A program made the translations under genes and the position numbers. Shown here piece after piece: positions 12,917-44,935 of a DNA stretch of 64,000 nt. How positions within the stretch are numbered: position 1 is the first letter of the stretch; every line of letters begins with the position of its first letter. The stretch covers positions 2,366,501 to 2,430,500 of the forward strand of contig CP016269.1 in assembly GCA_001880285.1 (NCBI GenBank), in the 5' to 3' direction. This stretch comes from Flavobacteriaceae bacterium UJ101 (GTDB lineage Bacteria; Bacteroidota; Bacteroidia; Flavobacteriales; UJ101). Below the pieces are notes generated by a model that was not told the DNA's origin, ran no database searches, and saw only the letters and a program-made list of their open reading frames with translations.

Positions 12917-12962
12917 AAATTCACTTTTTTAATTTAGATCAAATTAAAAAAGTGAATTTTTT
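12917..12962 (+). terminator. perfect 19-bp hairpin terminator after lepA
   Basis: Arms 12917-12935 and 12941-12959 are perfect reverse complements around the 5-nt loop AGATC and are followed by a T-run. It insulates lepA from the denitrification operon that begins at 13077. Confidence 0.88.
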
Positions 12963-12978
12963 ACTTACTTCAATTATT

Positions 12979-12996
12979 ATATGATCTAGATCATAT
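12979..12996. promoter_or_regulatory. FNR/DNR-like operator upstream of norC
   Basis: Perfect 18-bp palindrome ATATGATCTAGATCATAT. The core TGAT-N4-ATCA matches the half-sites recognised by Crp/Fnr-family oxygen and NO regulators (FNR, DNR, NnrR). Its centre (12987.5) falls about 41.5 bp upstream of the start point predicted from the -7 box, the class II activator position. Confidence 0.6.
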
Positions 12997-13016
12997 TTAT
13001 GTATTTTCTTAACTTC

Positions 13017-13024
13017 TTATTTTG
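13017..13024 (+). promoter_or_regulatory. probable -7 promoter box of the nor/nir operon
   Basis: TTATTTTG followed by C, one mismatch from TAnnTTTG, 53 nt before the norC ATG. A weak box would fit a promoter that depends on an activator bound at the palindrome upstream. Confidence 0.45.
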
Positions 13025-13076
13025 CAATTAAAAGATAAAAAGATCTTTTTGTATTAATTTAATTATAAAAAGTAAT

Positions 13077-13514
13077 ATGTTATCAAAAAAACAAGCACGA
13101 ACGTTTTTTCTTGGCGGTACTGTCGTTACATTTTTGATTTTTATTGGACTAACGATCTTCTCGTTTAGTAAAGAACAGGATCAAACTAATTCTGAAAATA
13201 TAACGGAACAAGTAGTAAGAGGTAAGGTACTTTGGGAAAAAAATAACTGTATGGGATGCCATACATTGTTAGGTGAGGGAGGATACTACGCACCTGAGCT
13301 TACAAAAGTTGTAGATCGAAGAGGTAAAGGATATATAAAGGCTGTACTTATGTCAGAAGCTCCTTGGGCACCTAGAGGAAGAAAGATGGTAGCTTATGGT
13401 TTCTCAAAAGAAGAAGCAGAAGACTTAATTGCATTTTTTGATTGGATAGGTGATATTGATCTTAATGGTTTTGATACTGTTATTTCTCCATTAGCAAAAG
13501 ATGAAAATCAATAA
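13077..13514 (+). CDS. norC: nitric oxide reductase cytochrome c subunit
   Basis: 145 aa. One N-terminal membrane helix (about residues 10-30) anchors a periplasmic class I cytochrome c domain. The heme site CMGCH near residue 60 follows GKVLWEKNN and leads into TLLGEGGYYAPEL, the NorC signature; the axial Met is expected in GRKMVAYGF. NorC passes electrons to NorB for reduction of NO to N2O. First gene of the operon, 14 bp before norB. Confidence 0.93.
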   Translation: MLSKKQARTFFLGGTVVTFLIFIGLTIFSFSKEQDQTNSENITEQVVRGKVLWEKNNCMGCHTLLGEGGYYAPELTKVVDRRGKGYIKAVLMSEAPWAPRGRKMVAYGFSKEEAEDLIAFFDWIGDIDLNGFDTVISPLAKDENQ

Positions 13515-13528
13515 TTAAATAAAACAAA

Positions 13529-14860
13529 ATGAAATATAAATCACAAAAAGTAGCTTACTGGTTTTTTGCATTTTCAATGCTACTATTAGTTTTACAATTA
13601 ACGTATGGGTTTATTATGGGGTTCGCTCGTATTGGTTTAGACGGGTTACATGACTTTATTCCTTTTAATACAGCAAGGGCTGTTCATACGAACTTATTGG
13701 TTGTTTGGTTGCTTTCAGGTTTTATGGGAGCAGCTTATTATATAATTCCAGAAGAAGCACAACGAGAACTTGTTAATGTGAAATTAGCTTATATTCAGTT
13801 AATTACTTTAGCATTAGTAGGAGTGACAGCTATAATTGGTTATCATTTTAACTGGTGGGAAGGACGTAAATTTTTAGAAATCCCAAGGCAGTTGGATTTC
13901 TTAGTTGTTGCTAATGTATTGCTATTCTTGGGATTAATCTTAATCACCTTATTTAAAGGAAAACGGAGAACCACAACAGCACTAGTCCTTTCAATGGGAT
14001 TACTTTTTGCTGCTTTATTATATTTACCAGGGATGCTTCCTTTTGATAGTCAAGTAACAGATTCATTTTTTCGTTGGTGGGTTGTGCACCTATGGGTAGA
14101 AGGTGTTTGGGAATTGATCATGGGAGGTATTTTATCTTTCCTATTAATAAAACTTACAGGAGTAGATAGAGAAGTTATTGAAAAATGGTTGTATGTGATT
14201 GTAGGTTTAACGTTTTTGTCAGGAGTTCTAGGGACAGGACATCATTATTATTACATAGGAGTAAACAAAATATGGTTAATCGTTGGAGGTATTTTTTCTG
14301 CATTAGAACCTTTAGCTTTTTTGGCTATGGCTTTGTTTGCAGTAAACATGTATCGTAAGGGAGAAAAAAAACATCCTAATAAATTAGCATTATTTTGGAC
14401 TTTAGGAGCTGCTATAGTTTCTTTTATTGGAGCAGGAATTCTAGGTTTTGCACATACACTTCCACAAACCAATTTATACACACACGGTACTTTAGTAACA
14501 GCAATGCATGGTCATTTAGCTTTTTGGGGAGCCTATGCTATGATAGTGTTGGCCATTATTAGTTATAGTTTACCCAATATGACGGGTAGAAAATTATATG
14601 AAAGTGCAAGAGGTCGAGCTGCTTTCTGGCTTTCAAATATTGGAATGCTAGGTATGACTACTGCTTTTGGAGTGGCAGGTGTTGCACAAGTTTATTTAGA
14701 AAGAAAACATAAAATGGAGTTTATGGAAGTACAAAATGAAATTAGTATTCATTTTGTGGTTCTCCTCATATGTGCTTCGATTTTAACAACAGGTATTATA
14801 TTGTATATCATTGATTTTATAAAACATGGCCGTCCTACAGATGAGGCTTTAGAAATATAA
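13529..14860 (+). CDS. norB: nitric oxide reductase large subunit (cNOR type)
   Basis: 443 aa, about 12 membrane helices; heme-copper oxidase superfamily. Visible ligands and signature positions: the heme b His in AVHTNLLVVW, HLWVEGVWE (His plus the conserved Glu), GTGHHYYYIG (the His pair for FeB) and MHGHLAFWGAY (axial His of heme b and b3). The short length without an N-terminal quinol-binding extension marks the cytochrome c-dependent cNOR type, in keeping with norC directly upstream. Reduces two NO to N2O at the membrane. Confidence 0.95.
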   Translation: MKYKSQKVAYWFFAFSMLLLVLQLTYGFIMGFARIGLDGLHDFIPFNTARAVHTNLLVVWLLSGFMGAAYYIIPEEAQRELVNVKLAYIQLITLALVGVTAIIGYHFNWWEGRKFLEIPRQLDFLVVANVLLFLGLILITLFKGKRRTTTALVLSMGLLFAALLYLPGMLPFDSQVTDSFFRWWVVHLWVEGVWELIMGGILSFLLIKLTGVDREVIEKWLYVIVGLTFLSGVLGTGHHYYYIGVNKIWLIVGGIFSALEPLAFLAMALFAVNMYRKGEKKHPNKLALFWTLGAAIVSFIGAGILGFAHTLPQTNLYTHGTLVTAMHGHLAFWGAYAMIVLAIISYSLPNMTGRKLYESARGRAAFWLSNIGMLGMTTAFGVAGVAQVYLERKHKMEFMEVQNEISIHFVVLLICASILTTGIILYIIDFIKHGRPTDEALEI

Positions 14861-14883: not shown

Positions 14884-16353
14884 ATGAAAAATAAACTAAA
14901 TTACTTACTGGCAACTATTTTCTTATTATCCTTTATTAATTGTAATAATTCTGAAACAGCTCAGAAAGAAGGAAAAACAGTTGAAAAAGGAGATAAAATA
15001 GCAAAGAAAGGAAGTAAAGAGCGTGTTGAAGCGGAATTAACATCACCACCTAATGTACCAAAACCAGTAGGGGATAGACCTGCTCAAATATTGGATGTGA
15101 ATATGGAAATTATTGAAAAAGAAGGTACAATAACGGATGGTACAACCTATGTATACTGGACTTTTGGAGGAACAGTGCCTGGAAGTTTTATCCGTACTCG
15201 AGTTGGAGATGAAATTAATTTTACATTATCAAATCATCCTGATAATAAATTACCTCATAATATAGATTTACATGCTGTTACAGGCCCTGGAGGAGGAGCA
15301 ACATCATCTTATGTAGCCCCAGGTCAAGAAAAAACATTTTCATTTAAGGCTTTACAACCTGGTCTATTTGTGTATCATTGTGCAACAGCACCAGTTGGAA
15401 TGCATATAGCGAATGGTATGTATGGATTAATATTAGTGGAACCAGAAGGTGGTTTACCTAAAGTAGATAAAGAATATTACGTTATGCAAGGTGATTTTTA
15501 TACCGAGGGAGAAAATGGAGCTCCAGGCTTACAAGCTTTTGATATAAACAAAGCGGTAGATGAAGATGCAGATTATGTAGTATTTAATGGTAGAGTTGGT
15601 TCTTTAACAGGAGACAATGCTCTTACTGCTAAAGTAGGTGAAACGGTTCGTTTATTTGTTGGAAATGGAGGTCCTAATTTAACTTCTTCATTTCACGTAA
15701 TTGGTGAAATTTTTGATAATGTGCATATAGAAGCGGGTTCTTCTATTAGCGAAAATGTTCAAACAACAAGTGTTCCTCCTGGAGGTGCAGCAATAGTAGA
15801 TTTTAAAGTTGAGGTACCAGGTACTTTTATATTAGTTGATCATGCTATATTCAGAGCATTTAATAAAGGAGCATTAGGAATGTTAAAAGTAGAAGGAGAG
15901 GAAAACATTGATATTTACTCAGGAGTAGTACATGAAGGTGCTTATAATCCAGGGAACGGAGGAGATCAAAATATTGGGAAGGAAGAAGCTGCTGAAGTAG
16001 CAGAAGTGGAAGTCTTAAGCTTAGAAGAAAAAATGAAAAAAGGGAAAGAAGTTTTTAGTAGTACATGTATGGCGTGTCATCAAGCTACAGGTCAAGGGAT
16101 TCCAGAAGCATTTCCACCATTAGCTAAGTCAGATTATTTAAATGCAGATGTAGATCGTGCTATTGGTATAGTATTGAATGGTAAGAAAGGTGAAATAACG
16201 GTTAACGGCCAAAAGTACAATGGTATTATGACAAAACAGGTTCTTACCGATCAAGAAGTAGCCAATGTATTAACGTATGTATACAATAGTTGGGGAAATA
16301 ATAAAACAGAAGTTAAATTGAGTGATGTTCAAAGAGTTAAAAATGGACACTAA
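14884..16353 (+). CDS. nirK: copper nitrite reductase fused to a C-terminal cytochrome c domain
   Basis: 489 aa. Lipoprotein-type signal peptide (LLSFINC), so probably lipid-anchored in the periplasm. Two cupredoxin domains: type 1 copper ligands in LPHNIDLHA (about 125), VYHCATAPVGMH (Cys about 166, His, Met), type 2 copper His in HNIDLHA and SSFHVIGE (about 270) plus the later VDHAIFRAF. From about residue 375 a class I cytochrome c domain follows, with CMACHQATGQG near 394 and the likely axial Met in NGIMTKQ. Reduces nitrite to NO; the tethered heme probably serves as built-in electron donor. Sits between norB (23 bp) and the FGE-like gene (11 bp). Confidence 0.95.
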   Translation: MKNKLNYLLATIFLLSFINCNNSETAQKEGKTVEKGDKIAKKGSKERVEAELTSPPNVPKPVGDRPAQILDVNMEIIEKEGTITDGTTYVYWTFGGTVPGSFIRTRVGDEINFTLSNHPDNKLPHNIDLHAVTGPGGGATSSYVAPGQEKTFSFKALQPGLFVYHCATAPVGMHIANGMYGLILVEPEGGLPKVDKEYYVMQGDFYTEGENGAPGLQAFDINKAVDEDADYVVFNGRVGSLTGDNALTAKVGETVRLFVGNGGPNLTSSFHVIGEIFDNVHIEAGSSISENVQTTSVPPGGAAIVDFKVEVPGTFILVDHAIFRAFNKGALGMLKVEGEENIDIYSGVVHEGAYNPGNGGDQNIGKEEAAEVAEVEVLSLEEKMKKGKEVFSSTCMACHQATGQGIPEAFPPLAKSDYLNADVDRAIGIVLNGKKGEITVNGQKYNGIMTKQVLTDQEVANVLTYVYNSWGNNKTEVKLSDVQRVKNGH

Positions 16354-16364
16354 TAAATAGATTA

Positions 16365-17138
16365 ATGCTAATAATTGTTGCCCGGTTGACTATATGTTTT
16401 ACCTTATTACTACTCAGTAATAAGGTAAGCAGTCAATCTAAAATGGTGGAGATTGAAGGAGGTTCTTATATTCCTATTTATGGTAGAGATTCCGTTTTGG
16501 TAAAGGTATCAGATTTTATGATGGATGTTTACCCTGTAACCAATCAAGACTTTTTAGAATTTGTTAAAGAAAATCCAAATTGGCAAAGATCTAAAGTAAA
16601 AAAACTATTTGCTGATAAGAGTTATTTAAAAGGATGGAAGTCCGATACAATTCTTGGAGTTAATCAATTAGAAAAATCACCTGTAACCAATGTTTCATGG
16701 TTTGCAGCAAAAGAATATTGCCTATCTAAAGGGAAAAGATTACCAACAATAGATGAATGGGAATATGTTGCGATGGCAAGTAAAGATAAACCTGATGCGC
16801 GGAAAGATGAAAAATACAATGGATATATACTTTCTTGGTATGAAAAGCCTAGAACATATAAAAATACAATAGGATCTACATTTAAAAACTATTGGAATGT
16901 ATACGATTTACATGGACTTGTTTGGGAATGGACACTTGATTTTAATTCAGTACTGATATCGGGTGAATCACGAAAAGATGTTGATGCAGATCGTAATTTA
17001 TTTTGTGGAAGTGCAGCTATTGGAGCAACTGATTTAATGAATTATGCTGCTTTTATGCGGTATGCTATTCGAGGAAGTTTAAAAGCGCAGTATACCATGC
17101 AAAATTTAGGGTTTAGATGCGTGAAAGATGAAAAATAA
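16365..17138 (+). CDS. exported formylglycine-generating-enzyme (SUMF1)-like protein in the nor operon
   Basis: 257 aa. N-terminal signal peptide (about 1-24, ending SNKVSSQ). The body has the FGE-sulfatase fold motifs: MVEIEGGSYIP, YPVTNQDFLEFVK, SPVTNVSWFAAKEYCLSKGKRLPT, EWEY and the closing NLGFRC. Members of this fold are often non-enzymatic or have other jobs. The two active-site cysteines of true FGE are not obvious, so sulfatase activation is unlikely. Its place between nirK and norQ, with 11- and 18-bp gaps, suggests a role in maturing or assembling the periplasmic NirK/Nor proteins; that is inference. Confidence 0.82.
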   Translation: MLIIVARLTICFTLLLLSNKVSSQSKMVEIEGGSYIPIYGRDSVLVKVSDFMMDVYPVTNQDFLEFVKENPNWQRSKVKKLFADKSYLKGWKSDTILGVNQLEKSPVTNVSWFAAKEYCLSKGKRLPTIDEWEYVAMASKDKPDARKDEKYNGYILSWYEKPRTYKNTIGSTFKNYWNVYDLHGLVWEWTLDFNSVLISGESRKDVDADRNLFCGSAAIGATDLMNYAAFMRYAIRGSLKAQYTMQNLGFRCVKDEK

Positions 17139-17156
17139 AAACAATATAACCTTCAA

Positions 17157-17936
17157 ATGAAAGAACAAGAACCTTATTATGAGCCTATAGCAAAAGAAGT
17201 TGAGATTTTTGAACATTCTTATAAACAGAAACTTTCATTTCTATTAAAAGGGCCTACAGGTACAGGTAAATCACGTTTTATAGAATACATGGCTTATCAT
17301 CTAGGTAAAAAACTTATTACGGTGAGTTGTCATGAGGAAACTTCTTCAACCGATTTAATTGGACGTTATATTATTAAAGGATCTGAAACTATTTGGCTTG
17401 ATGGTCCATTAACCACTGCAGTTAAGACAGGTGCTATTTTATATTTAGATGAAATTGCCGAAGCAAGACCAGATATTATTGTAGCTATCCATTCACTTAC
17501 AGATCATAGAAGAGAATTGTTTATCGATAAATTAGGAGAAACAATAAAAGCTCATGAAGACTTTATACTTGTTGCTTCTTTTAACCCTGGTTATCAACGT
17601 GGATTTAAAGAATTGAAACCTTCTACTAGACAACGATTTATAGCAGTTACATTTCATTATCCAGAACCTAAACTAGAAGTAGATATTCTAATAAATGAAA
17701 CGAATGTTGACTATGCAGATGCTAAGAAATTAGTGAGTATCGCAAATAAAATTAGAAATCTTACAGAATTAGGTTTAACAGAAACAGTTTCCACACGATT
17801 ATTGGTTGATGCTGCAAAATTAATTCATTCAGGATTGCCAAAACGGTTAGCAACTCATGTAGCGATAGTAGAACCTCTTACGGATGATCCTGAAATTATT
17901 AGTGCATTGAATGATTTATGTGATTTGATAATGTAA
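17157..17936 (+). CDS. norQ: NorQ/CbbQ-type MoxR AAA+ ATPase
   Basis: 259 aa. Walker A GPTGTGKSR near residue 36, Walker B ILYLDEIAEARPD, sensor 1 ILVASFNPG, and an arginine-containing RQRFIAV segment. NorQ works with the VWA protein NorD to activate nitric oxide reductase, by analogy with CbbQ/CbbO inserting a non-heme metal; in NorB this is FeB. norD follows 51 bp downstream. Normal family length. Confidence 0.92.
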   Translation: MKEQEPYYEPIAKEVEIFEHSYKQKLSFLLKGPTGTGKSRFIEYMAYHLGKKLITVSCHEETSSTDLIGRYIIKGSETIWLDGPLTTAVKTGAILYLDEIAEARPDIIVAIHSLTDHRRELFIDKLGETIKAHEDFILVASFNPGYQRGFKELKPSTRQRFIAVTFHYPEPKLEVDILINETNVDYADAKKLVSIANKIRNLTELGLTETVSTRLLVDAAKLIHSGLPKRLATHVAIVEPLTDDPEIISALNDLCDLIM

Positions 17937-17987: not shown

Positions 17988-19763
17988 ATGTTCGAATTCG
18001 AACCAGATGAATATATATTTACCAAATTTGCTCATTACTTTAAACGCAGAAGAAAAAGGAAAGAAGCAAATTTGGCTCATGTAGTTAAATTAAGTGATAT
18101 AAAACCACGTTTGACTATTTTTGCTCGTGCTGTAACAGGGAGTCCTATTGAAATTTATGATGCAGAAAGAGAAGGAGGCTATAAAAATAATAATTTCTTT
18201 TTACCTTCAAAATACGCTGAATTCTCCACTATTGAAGAAAATACTTCTTTTTACTTGTTTAGAGTATTGTATTTATCTATTCAAAAAAAATTGAATTTAA
18301 ATTGGAAAGAAGTTAAAGAATATTCACTTATAGAATCACAAAAAAAAGCAGAAGATACAGCATCAGAAGTATTAAACTATTTATTTAGAGAATTTTCAAT
18401 AACAGAAAAATACTATCAAAAATTTATATTACATTATTCAGAAAAAACAACGAAAAAAAGATTGTCTGATTTTTCCTTTATTTATGGAAAATGGATGCTT
18501 GATGCAACAGAAGAAAAATTAGAAGATCGCTTAAAAAATATTTCAGAGAAAGTTAAAACCACAAATCATGAACAACCTAAAACTTTATTAAAAGCCCATG
18601 CTGTAGAAGAGATCGTTTCAGTTCAAGTAGATAAGAAGCAAGTGGAAGATGCTGTGTTACAACATCAATTTGAAAAAGTCGAAACAGCAGAAGAGTTTAA
18701 TGGAAATTTCAGGAATATGGATGGTGATGATGAACTAGAAGATCATGCAAATGCTTTAGAAGATTTGAATATGAAATATACGGTTCGGGTAGATGATACA
18801 ACACATTCCGTATATCAAGCTGATTTTGTAGAGAATACAACGATTGCAGAAAGTGCATTGAATGATGAAAAGGGGTATTTTATTTTATATGATGAATGGG
18901 ATTATTCCAAACGTAATTACAAAGAGAACTATTGTAAAGTTTATCCAAAAACTATTTTAAAAAAGAATGTAGAATACTATAAAAAAGCCATTTCTAAAAA
19001 TGGTTCAACCTTGCTTGGTTTACGAAAAATGTTGACAACAGTTAATAATAAATATAAGCAACAACGTAGACAAACACAAGGAGAAGAGTTTGATTTAGAT
19101 GCTATTACAGATTTATTTGTTGATGTGCATTCCAATATTACACCATCAGAAAAAATTTACTTGTCTAAACGAAAAAAAGAAAAAGATTTATCTATTTTAT
19201 TGTTGTTGGATAGTAGTTTGTCAACCGATGGTTATGTTGCAGGTAATAGAGTGATTGATGTAGAAAAGCAAGTTTCTATATTATTCGGAGAAATATTAGA
19301 AGAATTTAATATTGATTTTTCTATAAACAGTTTTTACTCAAAAACAAGAAATCATTCTAGTTATATCACTATGAAAGATTTTGATGACAATTGGAATGAA
19401 GCAAAATTTAAAATTGGAGCTATAGAGCCAAGTGGTTATACGCGTATAGGTCCTGCATTGCGTCATTCAGGAGAATTATTAGATAAAAGAAAAACTCAAA
19501 ATAAATGGATCATTCTCATTTCGGATGGAAAGCCTAATGATTATGATCGGTATGAAGGAAAGTATGGTGTTAACGATATAAAACAAGCTCTACGGGAATT
19601 GAATGAAAGACAAATAAATTCCTATGCTTTGGCTATTGAAGCACAAGCAAAGTATTATTTACCACAAATGTTTGGTCAAAATCACTACCAAATATTAACA
19701 ACTCCTGTAGAATTATTACAATCATTAGTAAAGTTATATGAAAAAATAAAACATCAAAAATAA
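17988..19763 (+). CDS. norD: NorD-like VWA-domain activator protein
   Basis: 591 aa, cytoplasmic. A less conserved, highly charged N-terminal 390 residues precedes a C-terminal von Willebrand A domain with the MIDAS motif DSSLS (LLLLDSSLSTDG near residue 402), the conserved Thr in SGYTRIGPALRH and the Asp in ILISDGKPNDYD. This is the usual arrangement of NorD/CbbO partners of NorQ-type ATPases. It directly follows norQ in the operon. The N-terminal region is divergent, so the name rests on the VWA domain plus context. Confidence 0.87.
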   Translation: MFEFEPDEYIFTKFAHYFKRRRKRKEANLAHVVKLSDIKPRLTIFARAVTGSPIEIYDAEREGGYKNNNFFLPSKYAEFSTIEENTSFYLFRVLYLSIQKKLNLNWKEVKEYSLIESQKKAEDTASEVLNYLFREFSITEKYYQKFILHYSEKTTKKRLSDFSFIYGKWMLDATEEKLEDRLKNISEKVKTTNHEQPKTLLKAHAVEEIVSVQVDKKQVEDAVLQHQFEKVETAEEFNGNFRNMDGDDELEDHANALEDLNMKYTVRVDDTTHSVYQADFVENTTIAESALNDEKGYFILYDEWDYSKRNYKENYCKVYPKTILKKNVEYYKKAISKNGSTLLGLRKMLTTVNNKYKQQRRQTQGEEFDLDAITDLFVDVHSNITPSEKIYLSKRKKEKDLSILLLLDSSLSTDGYVAGNRVIDVEKQVSILFGEILEEFNIDFSINSFYSKTRNHSSYITMKDFDDNWNEAKFKIGAIEPSGYTRIGPALRHSGELLDKRKTQNKWIILISDGKPNDYDRYEGKYGVNDIKQALRELNERQINSYALAIEAQAKYYLPQMFGQNHYQILTTPVELLQSLVKLYEKIKHQK

Positions 19764-19785
19764 TGATAGAAGGATTAAATTGACT

Positions 19786-20367
19786 ATGAAAACATCAATA
19801 ATAGATCATAAAAATATATATTATCCTCCAGGAGGAATTTTATTGTGGATTATCATCTACCTTGAACTAATAACTTTTGGTATGGGGTTGATTGCAATGG
19901 CATACTATAGTAAGCAAGAGCCAGAAAGTTTCCATACGTCAAGACTTTTGTTAAATTCTACTTATGGTATGATTAATACGCTGTTTCTCTTAACAAGTGG
20001 AGCTTGTATGGCGGCTAGTGTAAATGAATTGAAGGTTAAAAACAACAAAAAAGGGAAACAATATCTTTTACTTACCATACTTTTTGGAGGATTATTTTTA
20101 GGTTTAAAAACACTTGAATATTATGACAAAATTAAAGGAGGTTTAGAGATGGGATACAATACTTTTTTTAATTTTTATTGGATGCTTACCCTGTTTCATG
20201 TAATACATGTTATAGTAGGACTGGTCATATTAGTTGTTATTTATTTTGGAATAAAAAATGAGAATTTAAATACACAAATAGATGATATTGAATCTGGTGC
20301 AGCGTTTTGGCATATGTGTGATCTTATTTGGCTTTTGCTATTTCCTGTAGTCTATTTAATTTTTTAA
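19786..20367 (+). CDS. norE: NorE-like heme-copper oxidase subunit III family protein
   Basis: About 193 aa from the ATG at 19786; an in-frame TTG at 19780 is possible but only adds two residues. Five or so hydrophobic helices and the subunit III-like ending FNFYWMLTLFHVIHVIVGLVIL and AFWHMCDLIWLLLFPVVYL. NorE is an accessory subunit III homologue that improves NO reductase activity or assembly in several denitrifiers. Positioned after norD and 1 bp before norF. Confidence 0.87.
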   Translation: MKTSIIDHKNIYYPPGGILLWIIIYLELITFGMGLIAMAYYSKQEPESFHTSRLLLNSTYGMINTLFLLTSGACMAASVNELKVKNNKKGKQYLLLTILFGGLFLGLKTLEYYDKIKGGLEMGYNTFFNFYWMLTLFHVIHVIVGLVILVVIYFGIKNENLNTQIDDIESGAAFWHMCDLIWLLLFPVVYLIF

Positions 20368-44313: not shown

Positions 44314-44880
44314 TTAAAGTTTTATTCTACTTAATGTGTAAGGTGACATTCCTAAAAAAGATGCGATATATTGTCTGGGAGCATATTTAGCTGATTGAGG
44401 ATATTCTTTAATGAATAATTCAAGGGCTTCTTTTTTTGAACTTTTTGTTAATAATTCTCTTTGGAAATTAACTTTTTCTCTTAAAATTTTCTCAAAATAT
44501 TTTATTTCAAATAATTCCCAGTTAGGTATCGTCTTCCTTAGATCTTTTATGTCATTTGTAGTTAATACAAATATTTCACTAGGCTCAAGTGCTTCAATAG
44601 TTCTTTCACTAGGTTCTTGTGTTTGATAACTTTTTAATTCTGAAAAGAAAGAGCCTTGCTCAATAAATGCAGTGGTTTGTTCATTACCGTTATCATCATA
44701 ATAGTAGCTACGAAGTAATCCTGTTTTTAGAAATCCAACCAAATTGTTACGTTGACCAATTTCAATAAAATTATCTTGTTGTTTTAATTCTCTGGCTATC
44801 CATTTTTCAAGTAACTTTTCAGTTTCGTTAATGGAAACGGGAGCAAACTCTGTTATTATATTATGTACTACATTCTTCAT
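44314..44880 (-). CDS. Crp/Fnr-family transcriptional regulator
   Basis: 188 aa. An N-terminal cyclic-nucleotide-binding-like barrel (NNLVGFLKTGLLRSYY, FIEQGSFFSELKSYQ, ALEPSEIFVL) and a shortened C-terminal helix-turn-helix ending RQYIASFLGMSPYTLSRIKL. No cysteine cluster for an FNR-type iron-sulfur centre is present. This compact form is common in Bacteroidota. It could act on sites like the norC palindrome, but nothing here links them directly. Located upstream of the antiporter gene in the direction of transcription only by 55 bp on the opposite side, each with its own start. Confidence 0.85.
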   Translation of the reverse strand: MKNVVHNIITEFAPVSINETEKLLEKWIARELKQQDNFIEIGQRNNLVGFLKTGLLRSYYYDDNGNEQTTAFIEQGSFFSELKSYQTQEPSERTIEALEPSEIFVLTTNDIKDLRKTIPNWELFEIKYFEKILREKVNFQRELLTKSSKKEALELFIKEYPQSAKYAPRQYIASFLGMSPYTLSRIKL

Positions 44881-44935
44881 TCTTCATAAAGTTTAATTAC
44901 ATACAACAATCGTATAGATTGAAATATCTATTTGT

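Follow-up and report, generated by a model that had tools for sequence, protein, structure and literature searches.

FNR, ANR, and DNR of Proteobacteria activate class II promoters from TTGAT-N4-ATCAA boxes, TGA-N6-TCA dyads centred at -41.5, and their targets include nor, nap, cytochrome oxidase, and haem genes. Crp/Fnr paralogues may share such a box, as is the case for ANR and DNR. Within the Bacteroidota, HcpR of Bacteroides and Porphyromonas is a Crp/Fnr regulator of nitrosative-stress genes, and HcpR2 employs the motif GTAAC-N4-GTTAC with hcp as its main target (PMC1274295, PMC12750200). NsrR, a three-Cys protein of the Rrf2 family, targets nor, nirK, and ric/ytfE-type genes from operators situated at or near the transcription start, for which the consensus gATGyAT-N5-ATrCATc has been described (PMC1274295).

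The nor locus of Flavobacteriaceae bacterium UJ101 resembles FNR/ANR/DNR promoters in the position of a TGA-N6-TCA dyad and in the kinds of genes associated with it. However, its box is not the canonical one, having A as outer base (ATGAY..RTCAT) and T or C at the inner position, and, in contrast to Proteobacteria, the promoter is of the Bacteroidota TAnnTTTG type, which belongs to a divergent primary sigma factor. With HcpR it has the phylum and the regulator family in common, but the motif reads TGAY-N4-RTCA and precedes many targets. A second dyad recalls NsrR in its location, its target genes, and a three-Cys Rrf2 protein, whereas its sequence, AAAGAY-N6-RTCYTT, departs from the NsrR consensus and the Rrf2 protein differs in Cys spacing (x6/x5) and in possessing an invariant His.

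The norC Promoter and Its Operon

The window analysed comprises 64,000 nucleotides (contig CP016269.1, positions 2,366,501 to 2,430,500). On its + strand, norC (13077–13514), coding for the cytochrome c subunit of NO reductase, is followed by norB for the catalytic subunit (13529–14860; named relatives are up to 95% identical), nirK for a copper nitrite reductase with a C-terminal cytochrome c domain (14884–16353; TIGR02376, 353.7 bits; cytochrome c matches 379–472), a gene for a SUMF1/FGE-sulfatase-like protein (16365–17138; PF03781), and genes for a norQ-like AAA ATPase of the GvpN/CobS type (17157–17936), a norD-like protein (17988–19763; assigned by its position after norQ, with no NCBIfam match), and a norE-like member of the cytochrome oxidase subunit III family (19780–20367). 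Inside the nor-nir operon, nirK and norQ are thus separated by the SUMF1/FGE-sulfatase-like gene. Upstream of norC, a long and very stable A+T-rich hairpin followed by a T run (12918–12961, + strand; RNA fold of -18.1 kcal/mol, z -6.8) is likely the lepA terminator and as such likely insulates the nor promoter.

Between this hairpin and norC, ATATGATCTAGATCATAT (12979–12996, assigned to neither strand) forms a palindrome that is perfect across 18 bp and is predicted to be a class II activator site of the FNR/DNR type. A -7 box, TTATTTTG (13017–13024, + strand), matches five of the six conserved positions of TAnnTTTG. In F. johnsoniae, the -7 element extends from T at -12 through G at -5 and is separated from the start by 4 or 5 nt (PMC6847099). 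Applying this rule, with 4 nt after the -7 box, places the predicted norC start at about 13029 (+ strand) and therefore the palindrome centre, 12987.5, at -41.5, so that a dyad of the TGA-N6-TCA kind is found near this position. The preliminary description had reported an 18-bp TGAT-N4-ATCA palindrome, a weak -7 box, and a -41.5 geometry; palindrome and box are present as described, the latter with a single departure from TAnnTTTG, and the geometry is borne out through the inferred start and the spacing conserved among relatives (see below). A scan for σ70-type promoters revealed nothing relevant on the + strand. By itself ATATGATCTAGATCATAT constitutes little proof and comparison is required, because the TGAT-N4-ATCA core occurs four times in the window where 2.75 occurrences are expected and is no rarer than chance.

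Conservation of the Palindrome Across nor Loci

A search with NorB identified 80 named related loci, nearly all of them from Flavobacteriia, and the resulting norC upstream set consists of 81 sequences, or 78 once duplicates are removed; dinucleotide shuffles served as controls. TGAYN4RTCA is found upstream of norC in 70 of the 81 sequences, and the palindrome (consensus ATGAYN4RTCAT) in 69 of the 78 distinct promoters (shuffled mean 0.72, maximum 3), 56 of the 78 containing palindrome and -7 box together (shuffled mean 0.02). The geometry is kept across relatives, the distance from palindrome to box being exactly 23 bp in 57 of 69 promoters. In the column profile, ATGAYWWWWRTCAT is followed by TA..TTTG, whose first T is located 29.5 bp from the centre, and apart from a T-rich segment (about -33 to -30) there is little conservation in between. 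As in the window, the outer base before TGAT is A and not T in 59 of 68 aligned sites. About 11 of the 81 norC loci lack the palindrome; several of these exceptions have an SCO-like gene directly before norC, with no site within 2.5 kb. Flagellimonas pacifica possesses two nor loci (L029 and L030) with differing palindromes and operators.

That the palindromes are AT-rich chance occurrences without function agrees with the frequency of the core within the window, but conservation, fixed spacing, and a genome-wide excess speak against it; the comparative data rule this reading out, and the probability that we would still grant it is negligible. These comparisons support the norC palindrome as a real and widely conserved candidate site for an FNR-type activator.

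Genome-Wide Occurrence of the Palindrome

The pattern TGAYN4RTCAT-N22-TANNTTTG, with zero mismatches allowed, has 299 matches in 30 genomes, as compared to 3 for the reversed control. In an unselected sample made up of whichever site was listed first for each genome, with genes named by sequence reading and not by family search, sites precede genes resembling hemN, ccoS, nos-type cytochrome c, universal stress protein, and sulfide:quinone oxidoreductase genes, among others. The genome of strain UJ101 (3.07 Mb, one contig) was searched by pattern and in stretches around the matches, and the list of regulon members is thus a lower bound. In this genome, a site combined with a -7 box at a spacing of 23–25 is found before napD-napA and the moeA operon (moe/moa), before a truncated-globin operon divergent from a Crp/Fnr gene (L018, see below), before an SCO-RIC operon, where the core, TGATCTAGATCA, is identical to that of norC, and before a gene for an alginate-export-type porin; truncated globin and porin are identified by sequence reading only, the globin giving no Pfam match. 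The gene for a di-haem cytochrome c peroxidase has the palindrome with a poorer box. The raw number of palindromes in the UJ101 genome, 41, overstates the regulon, since some lie within coding sequence or before unrelated genes. The motif is thus enriched near anaerobic and nitrogen-oxide genes, and this enrichment, together with the conserved spacing, supports the class II activation of FNR/DNR type proposed earlier for norC, as far as can be judged from sequence.

A Second Dyad at the Start Site and an Rrf2 Protein

The preliminary description overlooked a second dyad, AAAAGATAAAAAGATCTTTT (13030–13049, assigned to neither strand), which spans +2 to +21 and is predicted to be the operator of an Rrf2/NsrR-like repressor; norC is therefore viewed here as a two-regulator promoter. 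AARGAYN5-7RTCYTT, with one mismatch allowed, is present in 65 of the 78 norC promoters (shuffled 1.8), the consensus being AAAGAYN6RTCYTT, and the dyad is retained in several promoters without the palindrome (L042, L067, L088, and L094). It also occurs before genes reading as nirK, nrdG, ric, porin, and rrf2. The sole other copy with an A-rich spacer in the UJ101 genome is located inside a longer inverted repeat between an Rrf2 gene (G000 2545470–2545892) and the divergent cytochrome c-nosZ operon, in which nosZ is named from sequence and context, Pfam giving no match. Across the same genome, the degenerate form AAAGAYN6RTCTTT is not enriched (11 occurrences versus 12 in the control), nor is the A-rich form with one mismatch; what makes the dyad specific is its A-rich spacer together with its position. 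An Rfam search gave no match above the gathering score.

Rrf2 genes are encountered near norC in many loci, and relatives exist in all 30 genomes. The encoded proteins carry the Rrf2 domain (PF02082, 83 bits), have NsrR as the best match among solved structures (1.3e-6), and possess invariant C92, C99, C105, and H108 (28/28). Upstream of rrf2 itself, the dyad is found in 16 of 28 cases (shuffled 0.9; control stretch 1/28). Rrf2 genes adjoining clade II nosZ have been reported from sediment metagenomes, in passages that describe them without an operator (PMC6264515). The dyad is best read as an operator, very probably bound by an NsrR-like Fe-S repressor which would sense nitric oxide.

Near nor, the dyad also precedes nrdG-like genes in the absence of the palindrome (L034 3060, L043 11064, L051 3059, L054 3031, L077 3042, and L085 3043). 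NrdG being the activase of class III ribonucleotide reductase, anaerobic synthesis of DNA precursors may be under the control of the same Rrf2 repressor.

As the dyad lies inside the predicted leader, it might instead be a hairpin of the leader RNA with a role in stabilising or regulating the mRNA. At one arm position most pairs are T-G, tolerable as U-G in an RNA stem, and the copy in the window does fold, if weakly (-3.4 kcal/mol, z -2.8). However, the nosZ dyad precedes the nos -7 box and therefore lies outside the nos transcript, the rrf2 promoters L191, L193, L195, and L202 have C..A combinations, which would disrupt pairing in RNA, and the dyad precedes the Rrf2 gene itself, as expected of an operator. 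Given these positions at nosZ and at rrf2 genes, we have downgraded the RNA hairpin to an improbable explanation and retain the DNA operator.

Candidate Regulators Reading the Palindrome

Among the twelve cNMP-binding proteins encoded in the UJ101 genome, two (L017 and L018) show the E..IR pattern within an HTH of the Crp type. Their recognition helices read TATESAIR (L017) and TVETVIR (L018), RVETVIR being conserved among the homologues of L018; FNR has Ser212 where these helices have Ile. Proteins of the L017 type, which among solved structures are closest to a Crp/Fnr protein (2gau) and to FNR, have four invariant Cys residues (C9, C12, C58, and C111; 23/23), the spacing of which is not that of E. 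coli FNR, a 4Fe-4S cluster protein. By comparison, the L018 homologues have no conserved Cys (n = 15) and thus no FNR-type Cys motif, a single His of the UJ101 protein is conserved in 13 of 15 homologues, and DNR ranks among their best matches of known structure (3dkw, E 1.3e-10).

An FNR-like oxygen sensor of the L017 type might be the sole reader of the palindrome, with NO control exerted solely through Rrf2 and the L018 gene being a mere target. The invariant Cys residues, the palindrome upstream of 20 of 23 L017 homologues (shuffled 0.24), the resemblance of unselected regulon members to hemN and ccoS, which are classic FNR/ANR targets, and the detection of L018 in only 15 of 29 nor genomes at E<=1e-20 (14 lack it) argue for this possibility, to which we give slightly less than even weight. 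In UJ101, however, the site adjoins the genes for L018 and the globin, not L017, and six nor genomes retain the site while having no close relative of L017. Conversely, the palindrome might be read by the DNR-like L018 type, a presumed NO sensor, alone. This assignment draws on ATGATCAAAATCAT, located between L018 and the divergent truncated-globin operon and 21 bp before the start of L018, on sites within 100 bp upstream in 8 of 15 homologues (shuffled 0.12), and on the kinship with DNR and the conserved helix already mentioned, but L018 is lacking in about half of the nor genomes that have the site, and we regard it as rather unlikely.

Since L018 is present in 15 of 29 genomes and L017 absent from six, no single regulator fits every genome. 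The cognate activator may be either the DNR-like L018 or the FNR-like L017, or both acting on one box, and a box common to paralogues would be the simplest reading. Of the earlier label "FNR/DNR-like," the assignment to the Crp/Fnr type stands, while either an FNR-like or a DNR-like reader would fit, L017 and L018 having the key recognition-helix residues in common.

Two genomes have neither L017 nor L018 at the thresholds used and possess longer Crp-domain proteins (frame of about 370–385 aa). Frames of about 350–385 aa coding for Crp-domain proteins with a class II site directly after them are found at G020:C1:1032135-1032713, G003:C1:123850-124410, and G008:C20:8474-9064, and such proteins are a possible third reader of the box. 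A rule links Glu in the recognition helix to TGA cores (PMC1274295), and L027 was rejected as a reader as it has Val at this position in an alignment made by eye. Also set aside was a Crp/Fnr-like gene inside the window (44339–44881) of the short-HTH type, with an HTH unlike those of L017 and L018, which is linked to no site. A tandem cluster of five related Crp-like genes with shortened HTH (L020, L021, L023, L025, and L026) occupies about 6 kb of the UJ101 genome (G000:C1:2905263-2911394).

A Two-Input Model and Its Meaning

Sites of fixed geometry are conserved across relatives, recur at related genes, and are placed before the regulator genes in an autoregulatory arrangement. The norC promoter probably receives two inputs, class II Crp/Fnr activation at -41.5 and Rrf2 repression over the start. 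In this model, in which binding, the signs of regulation, and the signals are deduced from sequence features, a dimer of the Crp/Fnr family would bind the palindrome and, in response to low oxygen and/or NO, serve as a class II activator of RNA polymerase at a promoter of the TAnnTTTG type whose -7 box is weak. An NsrR-like Rrf2 dimer with a predicted Fe-S cluster would bind the start-site dyad, block initiation, and be released by NO or by loss of the cluster. The output would be the norC-norB-nirK-norQ-norD operon, and both switches jointly would open norCB-nirK only at low oxygen in the presence of NO.

For Flavobacteriia in general, we consider it reasonably probable that a phylogenetically broad denitrification and anaerobic regulon exists, in which an ATGAY-N4-RTCAT box serves class II activation of the atypical Bacteroidota RNA polymerase and, for nor, nos, nirK, nrdG, and ric, is combined with a distinct Fe-S Rrf2 repressor acting on an undescribed AAAGAY-N6-RTCYTT operator. 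In the openly accessible literature, to which our searches were confined, neither motif was found described for Flavobacteriia, and no promoter-level regulatory logic was encountered for flavobacterial denitrification genes. Given the exact -41.5 geometry, class II activation seems to carry over to TAnnTTTG promoters and the divergent sigma factor of the Bacteroidota. Flavobacteria harbour many clade II nosZ genes and are relevant to N2O reduction. Denitrification in marine flavobacteria seems to be under the control of two switches, and two motifs with candidate regulators and target lists make the sensing of O2 and NO in flavobacteria experimentally addressable.
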